This document shows, one piece after another, positions 1 through 6,063 of a stretch of 21,518 bases of DNA. The notes under the pieces were generated by a model, which worked only from the letters and a program-made list of their open reading frames with translations, was not told where the DNA came from and ran no database searches. A program made the position numbers and the translations under genes. The stretch lies in IMG/VR virus record IMGVR_UViG_3300034375_006125, positions 1-21,518 of that record. One strand, written 5' to 3'. How positions within the stretch are numbered: position 1 is the first letter of the stretch; the number at the start of each line of letters is the position of its first letter. This DNA is from a virus.

Positions 1-908
1 GTGTTCATTGACCAAACACCTGGTGCAGATTTTGGTGTACCTGGTTCTTTTACAATTACTACACCTGATCCACCTTGCCCTCCTGGTTTAGGAGCCCCAC
101 CTCCACCGCCACCGCCACCACCGCCAGTGTTTGTTGTTCCTGCAGTTGCATCTTGATGAGGAGGAGCACATCTTGCTCCATTGCCTCCTCCACCTGTTCC
201 ACCTGTTCCAACAACATTATAACCCGATCCACCGCCACCACCTGCATAAATTGAACCGTCAAATGGAATACCTGCTCCACCTGGTCCACCTGCTGGTTGT
301 GAAGGATCCGAAGCATTACCACCTACAGCTGAACCACCACCGCCACCACCACCGCCGGAATCTCCTGGACTACCTGCTGGAAATAAACTTCTTCCACCTG
401 GAAAACCTTGACCACATACACCTGTTCCAAATCTTTGAGATTGTGCACAACTATCAGCTTGACCAGCACCACCACCTGATCCGCCGGGTTGTCCACCATA
501 TTGAGCTCCTGAAGGTGTATTTCTAGAACCACCTCCACCGCCACCTGTTGCTGTAACAGTAGCACAACCAATTACAAAAGAAGAAACACCACCATCTCCA
601 CCTGTAACTGATCTACAACCTGATCCTGCTCCACCAGCTCCAATAACAACAGCACCTAATGCTGCGCCACCTGTAACTGGAACACCTGTTGCTGTTTTAT
701 ATCCACCACCTCCGCCACCACCGCCAGAGTATCCACCATAATCATCTCCACCACCACCTGCACCTGCTGCTACTACTATGTAATCTACAGTTGTTGTTGT
801 TGGTTGAGTTGTAACTGCTGAGGGTGTACTGGCTGTAACTGTTGTTTTTACTTCAGCGATCGCTGCGTTAACTGTGTTGACTGGTCCGATAATTCCGCCA
901 TTTGCCAT
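1..908 (-). CDS. Glycine-rich phage fibre/adhesin, C-terminus cut by window edge
   Basis: The frame is open from the ATG at 908 to the window edge (302 complete codons, no stop), so the true C-terminus lies outside. Residues 1-40 are Ala/Thr-rich. From about residue 42 (VDYIVVAAGAGGGG) the protein becomes strongly glycine-rich, with runs of 8, 8 and 10 consecutive glycines separated by short variable segments, several containing Cys (five in all). Near the visible end are GGSGVVIVKEPG and APGVWSM, a combination typical of glycine-rich domains in phage tail fibres and adhesins. A strong ribosome site, GGGAGG, lies just upstream. By position it is the last structural gene seen in the leftward block. 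A receptor-binding or fibre-tip role is inferred from composition and family resemblance; the exact receptor cannot be told. Gly runs use mixed GGT/GGC/GGA codons, so they are not a simple DNA microsatellite. Confidence 0.75.
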   Translation of the reverse strand, partial: MANGGIIGPVNTVNAAIAEVKTTVTASTPSAVTTQPTTTTVDYIVVAAGAGGGGDDYGGYSGGGGGGGGYKTATGVPVTGGAALGAVVIGAGGAGSGCRSVTGGDGGVSSFVIGCATVTATGGGGGGSRNTPSGAQYGGQPGGSGGGAGQADSCAQSQRFGTGVCGQGFPGGRSLFPAGSPGDSGGGGGGGGSAVGGNASDPSQPAGGPGGAGIPFDGSIYAGGGGGSGYNVVGTGGTGGGGNGARCAPPHQDATAGTTNTGGGGGGGGGGAPKPGGQGGSGVVIVKEPGTPKSAPGVWSMN

Positions 909-1964: not shown

Positions 1965-3188
1965 CTATGCCGCTTTAGTTGTATCTACATCTGTATATGA
2001 GGTATTTGATCCTAAGTCAACATTTCCATAGTGTAGAATTCCAAATTGTGTACCTATATTAGCAGTTATCTCAAATCCAGTCAATCCAAGAACTATGTCT
2101 GGTGTAGTTACATCAGAAGCATTTAATGTTCCTGTAGCTAGTAAACTATCTGTAATAGTAACACCCGTGTTGTTACTAGGTGTTATAGCTCCTACTGAAC
2201 CAGTGGCCAATAAGCTTGTTGTTATAGGGACAATTATAGTAGTAGCATCAATAAGATTTCCTACTCTACCTGTTATCTCTAAACTATCTAATAAAACATT
2301 AATATTATCTTTTGGTGCAAGTGTGCCTAAACTTGCAGTCATAGAAAATGCTGTTAATCCTATTTGAATATCAGCACCATCTAAAATAGTTGGTGTACCT
2401 AAAGAACCTGTTGTTAATAAACTTTCAGATAATACTAAATTGTTATCAAAGAAAGGATCTAAAGCTGCTAAACTTCCTGTTATTTCAAATCCAGATAAGA
2501 CTATTTCTTGTTTAGTTTCTGCTGTTAAAGTTCCAAGTGACATTGTCATTGGAAAAGCTGGAAGTGTTTCTTTTCCTGCATCTACACTACCCCAACCGTT
2601 TTCTCCCCAATCTAAAGTACCCCAACCAGGAAAAACTGTAAATTCTAAATCAGTATCAAGTGTACCCGTTATTTGTAAACCTGTTAATGTAACTGTTTCA
2701 TCTCCTTGAGCAGCCCAATTACCTTGACCCCAATTCATTGCACCCCATGAAGTTTGAGTAAGGTCTATAATTCCACCCATACCAATACCATGCACCCAGC
2801 ATGCAAAATAAAAATCAATGGTGTCAGGAGCAGTTTGTGTAATTTCTATCCATCTTGTACTAGCTGCATTAAACGAAGTCGTGTTCATGTAAGTAGCTTC
2901 ACTAACTGCACCATCTAAATAATAATCTACATTATTTGTAATAATGCCGGCTCTCATTGTAGAGGTACTTAAACTATCTGAATTTGTAAAAAGTGCAGGA
3001 TGATTATCGTTAGTTGCATTAGATTGATCTAATCTAATAGTAGCACCTGCTACCCACGGTAATTTATAATTAGTTGAACTTGGGTCAGTAGTGGGTTGTG
3101 CACCATTAATAAAATAAACATTACCAGTACCACCTGCTCTAAATGTAGTTCCTGTTCCGACTGTAACTGTGAAAGTTGTGTCAGCCAT
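1965..3188 (-). CDS. Virion protein with cupredoxin-like domain and nine 23-residue repeats
   Basis: 407 aa; ATG at 3188 follows GGGAG. Residues 1-145 look like a small all-beta cupredoxin-type domain: VYFINGAQP, then DNHPALF with His63, then FACWVHGIGMGG with Cys130, His133 and Met137. This His...Cys-x2-His-x3-Met set matches the type 1 copper ligand pattern of plastocyanin-like proteins, although I cannot show that metal is bound. Residues 148-201 contain three Trp/Gly motifs (SWGAMNWGQGNW, GWGTLDWGENGW). Residues about 166-380 are nine imperfect copies of a beta-strand pair (V-L--F-ITGSLG-L) spaced about 23 residues apart. It sits within the tail/fibre gene group. A role as an extended appendage or fibre with a cupredoxin-fold head is inferred. 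Confidence 0.7.
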   Translation of the reverse strand: MADTTFTVTVGTGTTFRAGGTGNVYFINGAQPTTDPSSTNYKLPWVAGATIRLDQSNATNDNHPALFTNSDSLSTSTMRAGIITNNVDYYLDGAVSEATYMNTTSFNAASTRWIEITQTAPDTIDFYFACWVHGIGMGGIIDLTQTSWGAMNWGQGNWAAQGDETVTLTGLQITGTLDTDLEFTVFPGWGTLDWGENGWGSVDAGKETLPAFPMTMSLGTLTAETKQEIVLSGFEITGSLAALDPFFDNNLVLSESLLTTGSLGTPTILDGADIQIGLTAFSMTASLGTLAPKDNINVLLDSLEITGRVGNLIDATTIIVPITTSLLATGSVGAITPSNNTGVTITDSLLATGTLNASDVTTPDIVLGLTGFEITANIGTQFGILHYGNVDLGSNTSYTDVDTTKAA

Positions 3189-3728: not shown

Positions 3729-4475
3729 TTACTTTGAAGGGGAAGGCGAGTCAATATATAATCTGATAGTTCCATCATCATAATCATCTCTTCTTCTTCT
3801 TCCAACTTGCTCAATTGCAAACTGTTGTAACTCTTGTTTATATCTGTTTTCGTAATATGTCAACATATCCATTGGACCTTTTAAAAATCCAAATGCCTCT
3901 ACTAAACAAGCATATAATAGTCCATTAGGGAAATTAACGCTTAAATAGTTAGATGTAACGGTAGAAGACAAACCAGGTGGTCTTCTTACAAAATTAACTT
4001 GAAAAGTATATGTTTTATCTGGACATGGTGCAAACATAATAGTTCCTGAACTACTATCAGTATTACCTGTCATCGTAGTATCTCCTCCAAACATAGCATA
4101 ATATTTAGGTAAACCTCTTCCAGTAGTTGCACTATTTCCTTGGTCTGCAAACTTATTAAATTCATTTAAAAATGTAACATCTCTTTTTTCTAAATATACT
4201 TGAGTATCTGGTGTAGTATCATCCTCAGTAATTTGAATTGATCTAACAGCTAAACAACCAGCTGGAGCATTAATGTATTGTTGTCCAATAACTAATGAAC
4301 CTACCATAGAAGCTCTATCTGAATCTGTGTTTAAATCTCTCATTACTCTTAAACAAGCATTTCCAATAAATTGATCTGTAACCGTTGCAGTAAAAACAGA
4401 AGTATCAACTTCACAGTAATTTTGAATTGCTGAAGTTAAAGTTGCGTATGTGAATCCGTCGTTTACAAATGCCAT
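3729..4475 (-). CDS. Phage adaptor-like (head-tail connector) protein, 248 aa
   Basis: The N-terminus (YATLTSAIQNYCEVD, then FIGNACLRVMRDLNTD), the middle (GRGLPKYYAMFGGD, IMFAPCPDKTYTFQVNFVRR) and the C-terminal helices (LLYACLVEAFGFLKGPMDML, YYENRYKQEL) follow the layout of the adaptor family known from SU10/phiEco32-like podoviruses. In those phages a ring of adaptor subunits sits under the portal. The C-terminus is basic then acidic (GRRRRDDYDDG). The ATG overlaps the stop of the preceding 276-aa gene by one base (TAATG), so translation is probably coupled. Family recognition is from pattern memory and could be checked by profile search. The alternative is another minor head-tail joining protein. 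Confidence 0.65.
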   Translation of the reverse strand: MAFVNDGFTYATLTSAIQNYCEVDTSVFTATVTDQFIGNACLRVMRDLNTDSDRASMVGSLVIGQQYINAPAGCLAVRSIQITEDDTTPDTQVYLEKRDVTFLNEFNKFADQGNSATTGRGLPKYYAMFGGDTTMTGNTDSSSGTIMFAPCPDKTYTFQVNFVRRPPGLSSTVTSNYLSVNFPNGLLYACLVEAFGFLKGPMDMLTYYENRYKQELQQFAIEQVGRRRRDDYDDGTIRLYIDSPSPSK

Positions 4476-5305
4476 TATTGTGGTCCTATCGCTTTTAATG
4501 TTACTGGTCCTGAAGATGTATTATATCCTCCTCCACTAATTTGTCCAGTAATTGCTGTTCCAGCAGTCGTTACATTATAATTATTCAAAGGATCAGAAAG
4601 ACATCTTGCAGTAGCTCCAGCATTATGTGCTGCAGCGGTGCTTGAAAAAGTCCCTCTTACAACCCCTTCTAATTCATTTGTAGAACTAATCCCAGTATAA
4701 ACCAAAATTTCCGTACCCATTTTAATTGCATTAATAGGTGTACCTCCAGAAAAAAAATTTACACTTCCTGGTGTACGAGGACTTTCTACTCCAAATCCAG
4801 TTGCACTAGTTAAAATAATTCCAGTTGTTTGCGTTGCATCAATGGTAGTAGTAATAGTTGTAGTTGTTGAAATACGTTTACCTGGAATAATAGTAAAGCC
4901 ATTAAGATCACAAATTTGAGCTCCAGTTATACCATCTATATTAGCAATATTATTAAAAGCACCTGCAATACCAGAAGGCCCTCTAAATTTTACAAAACTT
5001 CCATACTGTCTTCCATGGTTTTCTTCAAAAATATTTATAATACCACTACCAGCTGATAATGTACTAATAGGGTTAAAACTTAAAAATCTTAAACTATCTG
5101 GTGAATCTTGTTGAGGTCTTGTAGTAGGTAAAGCTGTTGGATCTGCGGCACTTGGTTTTGGATCTAGTTGAGGTTGTTTACTTTCAAATTCTGAATAATG
5201 TACAAATAAACCATTCCACTGAGTAACCATTTCATTCCAGGGGAATGCTTGACCACTAATGTCTGATATTGCTAATGCGTATTTTCCTTGAGCATATCTT
5301 GCCAT
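4475..5305 (-). CDS. Conserved marine-phage structural protein (276 aa)
   Basis: The start, MARYAQGKYALAISDISGQ followed by FPWNEMVTQWNGLFVHYSEF and a KQPQLDPKP segment, is a signature I recall in many marine-phage structural proteins located beside connector genes. The C-terminal two thirds are beta-rich, with a Thr-run (ISTTTTITTTIDATQTTG) and a ...NAIKMGTEILVYTGIS...LEGVVRGTFSSTAAAHNAG block. That block resembles short beta modules in phage baseplate or fibre proteins, where a value is followed by VRG---T-A--H--G. ATG at 5305 lies 2 bases after the preceding stop, with no clear ribosome site of its own, which suggests re-initiation. Its stop overlaps the adaptor-like gene. It may join the tail to the head or form a collar; the exact function is unknown. 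Confidence 0.7.
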   Translation of the reverse strand: MARYAQGKYALAISDISGQAFPWNEMVTQWNGLFVHYSEFESKQPQLDPKPSAADPTALPTTRPQQDSPDSLRFLSFNPISTLSAGSGIINIFEENHGRQYGSFVKFRGPSGIAGAFNNIANIDGITGAQICDLNGFTIIPGKRISTTTTITTTIDATQTTGIILTSATGFGVESPRTPGSVNFFSGGTPINAIKMGTEILVYTGISSTNELEGVVRGTFSSTAAAHNAGATARCLSDPLNNYNVTTAGTAITGQISGGGYNTSSGPVTLKAIGPQ

Positions 5306-5307
5306 AA

Positions 5308-6063
5308 TTAAACGCTAGGATAGTAGGTTTTCGGTGTAATGTACGTACTTGTTTCCGAACCATCCGCTGCCTCCGCTCTTAGTAATTCATCTTCATATAA
5401 CAATTTTAAATTTTGTGTTCTTTCAGGTGCATATTTTAAACTTAAATAATATGCTAATCCAGCACACATACATGGCATATAGTAATAAGGAATATCAACA
5501 CCATTAGTGTAGTTTCCAACATCTTCTATTCTACTCATGTAATAAAATTGAATTTGATCTCCTGCCTGACTTGCACTGGGAGTTGTATATAAAGTTATGG
5601 ATACTCTATCTATAAATCGTTGAACCCAATATTGAGAAGGTTGTCCTTGAGCTAATTTATTAGACAACGAAGAATAAGTAGATCTAGATATTTTAGTTAA
5701 AGGTGAATCAGATTGACTTGTTGTACCGGCATTATTTCTATAAGACGCTTCAAACACATCATCAATACCATAAATTGCTGCTCCTGCAGCATCTAACAAA
5801 GTAGAAGTACCATCAGTGTCTGAACGATAACCAATGTATTCGTTTGTACCTGCAACTAATGTAGCGTATCCATCAGCAATTTGCCAAAGATGTATTCCTC
5901 TATTAGCCCATTCTTGAAAAAGTAAATTTAAAGATCTTCTAGCAGTTTTTAACTGGTAACCAGCAACTCCTCTTAGTCCACATCTTTCATAACCTTCTTC
6001 GATAATTTCGTCGATAGAAAAGTTTTTTCCAAAAACTGTAGTTCCTGAAGTTGTATTTGCCAT
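5308..6063 (-). CDS. Head-tail connector/tail accessory-like protein (251 aa)
   Basis: Begins with SIDEIIEEGYERCGLRG then LKTARRSLNLLFQEWANRGI and HLWQIADGYATLVAGTNEY, followed by TKISRSTYSSLSNKLAQGQP and YWVQRFIDRVSITLYTTPS. It ends with DIPYYYMPCMCAGLAYYLSL and KYAPERTQNLKLLYEDELLR. This alpha-then-beta-then-alpha order is that of the connector/tail-accessory family found next to adaptor genes in podoviruses, with functional analogy to P22 gp4. ATG at 6063 follows TTAGGAT. The gene is complete, of usual length for the family, and abuts the 276-aa gene. A position at the portal-tail junction is inferred from family and neighbours; the assignment as gp4-type rather than another connector is uncertain. 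Confidence 0.65.
   Translation of the reverse strand: MANTTSGTTVFGKNFSIDEIIEEGYERCGLRGVAGYQLKTARRSLNLLFQEWANRGIHLWQIADGYATLVAGTNEYIGYRSDTDGTSTLLDAAGAAIYGIDDVFEASYRNNAGTTSQSDSPLTKISRSTYSSLSNKLAQGQPSQYWVQRFIDRVSITLYTTPSASQAGDQIQFYYMSRIEDVGNYTNGVDIPYYYMPCMCAGLAYYLSLKYAPERTQNLKLLYEDELLRAEAADGSETSTYITPKTYYPSV

Follow-up and report, generated by a model that had tools for sequence, protein, structure and literature searches.

This study concerns a family of cupredoxin-like modules of phage tails, in which the ligand set typical of copper proteins has been kept. In fold and in their four candidate ligands these modules resemble the blue copper proteins that serve photosynthesis and respiration. Its representative in the window (the whole stretch of 21,518 nucleotides that was analysed) forms residues 1-145 (positions 2754-3188, minus strand) of a 407-residue tail-module protein (ORF 1965-3188, minus strand), where it is followed by WG motifs and then by 'LTGFEITGSLGT' repeats of about 25 residues. 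Annotation libraries give such domains only as 'tail fibre' or 'unknown', and the present assignment provides a name for them. Direct computational support exists for the predicted cupredoxin fold, for the order and register of the ligands, for their near all-or-none conservation and for exchange among tail proteins.

Characteristics of the 407-residue protein

Within the tail module, the ORF lies downstream of the genes that encode portal, capsid and tail proteins. Comparison of the domain with ten relatives from other contigs indicated purifying selection (dN/dS 0.17-0.36), which argues that the ORF is a real gene, and from its position in the tail module together with its relatives we infer that its product is a virion protein.

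Four candidate copper ligands had been pointed out in a preliminary description of this DNA, and translation located them at the positions proposed, with the proposed spacing C-x2-H-x3-M. These are His63 in the sequence NDNHPALF (codon 3000-3002, minus strand), Cys130 (2799-2801, minus strand), His133 (2790-2792, minus strand) and, as candidate axial ligand, Met137 (2778-2780, minus strand). Cys130 is the only cysteine of the whole protein, which has three histidines (63, 133 and 386).

The C-terminal two thirds, beyond the domain (1965-2750, minus strand), contain WG-x3-5-WG motifs and then approximately eight 25-residue 'LTGFEITGSLGTL' repeats; this part is common to many related viral contigs. 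An AF2 model of all 407 residues reached a pLDDT of 39.5 (below 40 in the repeat part), too poor for interpretation outside the domain.

Predicted fold

The same description had suggested a cupredoxin fold, and structural comparisons agree with it. Modelled by AF2 with alignment A2 (see below), the domain alone displayed a pLDDT of 88.7 and a pTM of 0.84. The best 50 rows listed by Foldseek for the PDB, headed by an E of 6.9e-4, consisted entirely of copper nitrite reductases and multicopper oxidases. VIA-align placed rusticyanin first, at a Z of 7.5 over 109 residues (2.9 A), a value which, like any Z below 8, can reflect a common arrangement and is weak alone. Cupredoxins occupied 45 of the best 50 rows listed by VIA-align; the other five were one aspartic-peptidase fold (SO1698, Z up to 6.8). 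Matches in BFVD were largely structural proteins of cyanophages and other marine phages.

The ligands are placed in the model as in cupredoxins: His63 immediately precedes the strand 65-68, Cys130 ends the strand 125-130, and His133 and Met137 lie at the turn and the start of the strand 134-144. A cupredoxin beta-sandwich fold is thus supported for the predicted structure.

Relationship with known cupredoxins

At an E-value of 0.01, the window domain matched nothing in Pfam, PHROGs, NCBIfam, PDB sequences or the phage collection. Relatives were reached stepwise, close ones from IMG/VR first and more distant ones afterwards. A single scan showed a larger clade, with the motif C-x2-H-x2-M ('YYYCTNHSGMGG'), to be present on at least about 600 contigs of viruses, and L049-L051, L163, L167 and L169 are intermediates between this clade and that of the window.

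The relationship with cupredoxins was also apparent at the profile level. The broad family profile scored 34.7 (P 1.4e-5) against a reference profile built from five cupredoxins (plastocyanin, amicyanin, pseudoazurin, rusticyanin and azurin), which retrieves the expected PDB entries; the reversed control reached 11.8 and the best of 60 column shuffles 15.3. A narrower profile alignment brought His63, Cys130 and His133 into register with plastocyanin His37, Cys84 and His87, Met137 falling one residue earlier than the plastocyanin methionine due to the shorter loop. The ligand order of copper proteins, initially read from the single sequence, is therefore confirmed by this register with plastocyanin and by the invariance of all four residues in A2.

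Individual family members matched sulfocyanin (4.4e-5), SoxE (4.5e-5), rusticyanin (0.013) and plastocyanin (0.025), and single-sequence hhalign comparisons were insignificant. More plastocyanin-like copies occur in cyanophages: P-SSM2 attained 21.0 bits with PF00127 (Copper-bind), the highest value among the relatives, against a cut-off of 21.2 bits, and S-H9-1 matched rusticyanin at 7.8e-4. The window domain itself gave no match with PF00127. Homology to cupredoxins beyond the fold is hence reached by the broad profile and by family members, the window sequence alone remaining below it. On these grounds we assign the domain to the cupredoxin superfamily but leave it outside PF00127. PDB matches of the A1 and A2 profiles to efflux pumps and antibody heavy chains were rejected as chance or as Ig 'YYC' look-alikes.

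The best matches, both structurally and for family sequences, were rusticyanin and sulfocyanin (SoxE), which share the His-Cys-His-Met set. Rusticyanin, however, is a soluble periplasmic electron carrier with C-x4-H-x4-M and His-Ser, whereas the window domain, built into a tail protein, displays C-x2-H-x3-M and His-Pro. Like plastocyanin, amicyanin and pseudoazurin (PF00127), the domain has a C-x2-H-xn-M hairpin and a first histidine before strand 4. It differs from these proteins by a three-residue loop between His and Met, by a helix-containing insert (residues ~69-110) and by not being a free electron carrier. The loop has three residues in the window clade ('HGIGMGG') and two in the larger one, the latter being the length found in amicyanin.

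Cyanophages encode plastocyanin (petE) as a metabolic gene (PMC3037559), which is likewise a cupredoxin gene of marine phages. It is host-derived and acts in the infected cell, in contrast to the tail domain, which is separate from it and fused to structural proteins. Viral nirK is also a metabolic enzyme (PMC8115048). The literature searched, mainly openly accessible journal articles, yielded no description of a virion protein that contains a cupredoxin.

Conservation of the candidate ligands

Alignment A2 comprises 84 diverse relatives sharing 27-94% identity with the window domain. Among its members, all of which were required to carry C-x2-H-x2/3-M, only ten columns were invariant (V10, N23, Q55, N60, H63, P64, C130, H133, M137 and G138). 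Copies that failed this filter beforehand were only contig-end truncations or second copies in two cyanophage proteins. The probability that four columns named in advance should all fall among ten invariant ones out of 145 is 1.2e-5 if shared ancestry is ignored. Moreover, a query ending before the cysteine, and hence blind to Cys, His and Met, recruited copies with the same ligand picture. Each of the 84 domains contained exactly one cysteine, which excludes its involvement in an intradomain disulphide.

Of the 258 distinct copies considered in total, 249 retained the complete set of four ligands; the copies share ancestry, so that these counts do not represent independent events. Two of the remaining copies were incomplete: L020 is interrupted by a contig end, and in L285 only the second half aligned, with Cys, His and Met present. 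The seven true exceptions consisted of six copies lacking Cys, His and Met jointly and one lacking Cys alone. Four of the six (the second copy in S-SM1 gene 104, L374, L281 and L286) had lost every ligand that could be judged; in the other two, which are the second copies of S-H9-1 and ACG-2014h, one His remained. Independent losses among homologues had been named in the preliminary description as the pattern that would speak against a common site; what emerged is that nearly all copies are complete and that six of the seven true exceptions lose Cys, His and Met together. Such block loss is predicted by a shared metal site, and the degenerate copies, some of which share a protein with an intact one, constitute a natural control.

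S-SM1 gene 104 (L375) codes for a baseplate-region protein in which one copy has the four ligands and another displays Q, A, S and L instead. The single copy lacking only Cys comes from a Poribacteria MAG (Candidatus; L252, 2586-2879): Ser replaces Cys, both His and the Met are intact, and the ORF is about 1,800 residues long. It is the only copy of this type that was found.

Distribution and exchange among tail proteins

A copper or redox site in a phage particle had at first been considered unusual. This view has to be corrected, since marine phages commonly possess the domain. A query typical of the family, modelled on L062, matched 88 records out of 50,697, and by organism tally every one of these was a marine or estuarine phage; cyanophages, Prochlorococcus, Pelagibacter and Methylophilales phages as well as uncultured seawater phages were among them. 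S-TIM5, Baldr and HTVC028P are examples of isolates with the domain. A scan of genome contigs for a cellular source gave only six loci, all from MAGs or a single-cell assembly and probably on viral contigs; none was a clear cellular case.

Within its carriers the domain may be N-terminal, internal or C-terminal, and tandem arrangements also occur. The annotations of its carriers are baseplate wedge, gp9 tail-fibre connector or tail fibre, as given both by PHROG matches and, for the gp9 connector and tail fibre, by the genes of isolates. Six PHROG tail families (30742, 693, 708, 677, 6005 and 32294) recognised the domain in up to 74 of the 84 members; their annotations name a tail fibre, a baseplate wedge or a structural protein, and neither cupredoxin nor copper figures in them. 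For phage S-SM1, Sullivan 2010 found 41 virion proteins (PMC3037559). In the Synechococcus phage ACG-2014d (L022, 2002-5466), the domain interrupts a YHYH domain (PF14240): YHYH motifs lie ahead of it, and the last part of the Pfam match (profile positions 136-184) comes after it.

Among related phages, three different neighbouring tail genes bear the domain. Besides the 407-residue protein, this concerns homologues of two tail-module proteins which, in the window, are without it. The first (4475-5305, minus strand) has homologues that terminate in the domain in L046, L051 and L059; its N-terminal 67-76 residues are 49% identical to the proteins of L059 and L046, and L046 has both carriers. 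The second (5308-6063, minus strand; phrog_12985) shares 48% identity across 242 residues with the C-terminal portion of a 365-residue protein of 023Pt_psg01, which has the domain at its N-terminus. In HTVC027P and HTVC023P, related carrier proteins are present and searches did not find the domain. This switching of carriers, together with the absence from HTVC027P and HTVC023P, points to an exchangeable accessory whose ligands are kept on any carrier.

Putative copper site and role

We propose that the domain is a cupredoxin which phages have taken up as a module, shuffled among tail, baseplate and fibre proteins and displayed on them. Its residues His63, Cys130, His133 and Met137 would form a mononuclear type-1-like copper site in the loops at one end of the beta-sandwich. 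As judged from sequence and model, this predicted site is likely to bind copper. Classical type 1 sites have Asn or Ser after the first His, hydrogen-bonding the Cys sulphur. In the present family this residue is near-universally Pro, which, along with the three-residue loop between His and Met, leads us to expect an altered colour and potential of the site. The bacterial cytoplasm being copper-poor, the site would probably be filled after lysis or in the periplasm or seawater, and the copper-loaded domain would act at the particle exterior. Its role would most likely be that of a metal-stabilised or metal-tuned adhesion module aiding the engagement of the tail with the host surface, in preference to that of an electron carrier. 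Taken as a whole, this explanation (a shuffled tail cupredoxin with a type-1-like copper site, serving surface adhesion) appears to us a probable one. The specific role in attachment by metal-tuned adhesion, considered separately, is possible rather than probable, and anything beyond display on the tail is guesswork.

The main competing explanation, which we consider rather unlikely, would see in the cupredoxin fold no more than a module for adhesion or carbohydrate binding, copper-free in the particle, where the four residues serve folding or packing. Phage tails often bear Ig-like and other beta-sandwich adhesion modules. Nine of the 84 relatives weakly matched CBM_4_9 (best 9e-5), which the window domain did not match, and the Pro following the first His could be understood in the same way, as could the equal invariance of the non-ligand residues N23, Q55, N60 and P64. 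Yet packing poorly explains why a lone invariant Cys, two His and a Met should be found precisely at the ligand positions of cupredoxins, or why most degenerate copies drop these residues as a group while their remainder is still recognisable.

Tail copper might also serve host recognition by deceit, an outer-membrane receptor taking the tail for a metal source. An iron version of this scheme (Ferrojan Horse) was put forward for the HxH motifs in tail fibres of marine phages (PMC11705849). The HxH sites of T4 gp37 and of these fibres resemble the putative site of the present domain as metal sites on a phage tail, those of marine phages being proposed ones. The iron is attributed to paired His at the tip of the tail fibre, whereas here a single beta-sandwich holds a putative site that contains Cys. 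Occurrence of the domain on fibres and baseplate connectors, and in marine phages only among the 50,697 records, would suit a copper Trojan Horse. However, a type-1-like site buries its copper, and the carriers include baseplate and adaptor proteins besides fibre tips. We know of no receptor for the recognition of a copper tail, and regard this explanation as distinctly unlikely.

Very much the same can be said of a structural clamp formed with another metal, e.g. zinc, or with Cu(I) only, which we think has a slender chance. Soft sets of Cys and His ligands accept zinc or Cu(I), and apo-cupredoxins readily bind zinc; nevertheless, zinc has little use for an invariant Met, and His/Cys/His/Met in cupredoxin register is the signature of copper. 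Finally, a redox-active site swapping electrons with host or seawater partners at adsorption or entry is highly improbable: the ligand set is that of electron-transfer cupredoxins, but neither a partner protein nor an accompanying redox domain is associated with this module, which moves among unrelated tail proteins, and its His-to-Met loop varies by clade.

If the proposed tail cupredoxin does bind copper, a metal site would be present in the tails of phages that infect dominant ocean bacteria (picocyanobacteria, SAR11 and OM43). This would extend the idea of iron in phage tails to copper and offer a testable handle on phage attachment. A broader suggestion, which we hold to be doubtful, is that, in many of the most common phages of the ocean, shuffled cupredoxin sites would hold between one and several copper ions per tail, so that the particles would form a copper-binding pool in seawater and use the metal in adsorption.

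Host and neighbouring genes

The terminase of the 21.5-kb phage fragment was closest to that of Pelagibacter phage HTVC027P (73% identity), which makes a SAR11-like host likely on sequence grounds. A GroES-like co-chaperonin of the phage (11397-11837, minus strand; phrog_3188, E 4e-21) is encoded amid the structural genes, and one is annotated at the same place in HTVC027P and 023Pt_psg01. At the edge of the window, an open-ended, truncated ORF (3-908, minus strand; phrog_2295, E 6e-30) is very glycine-rich and probably codes for a tail tip or fibre protein.
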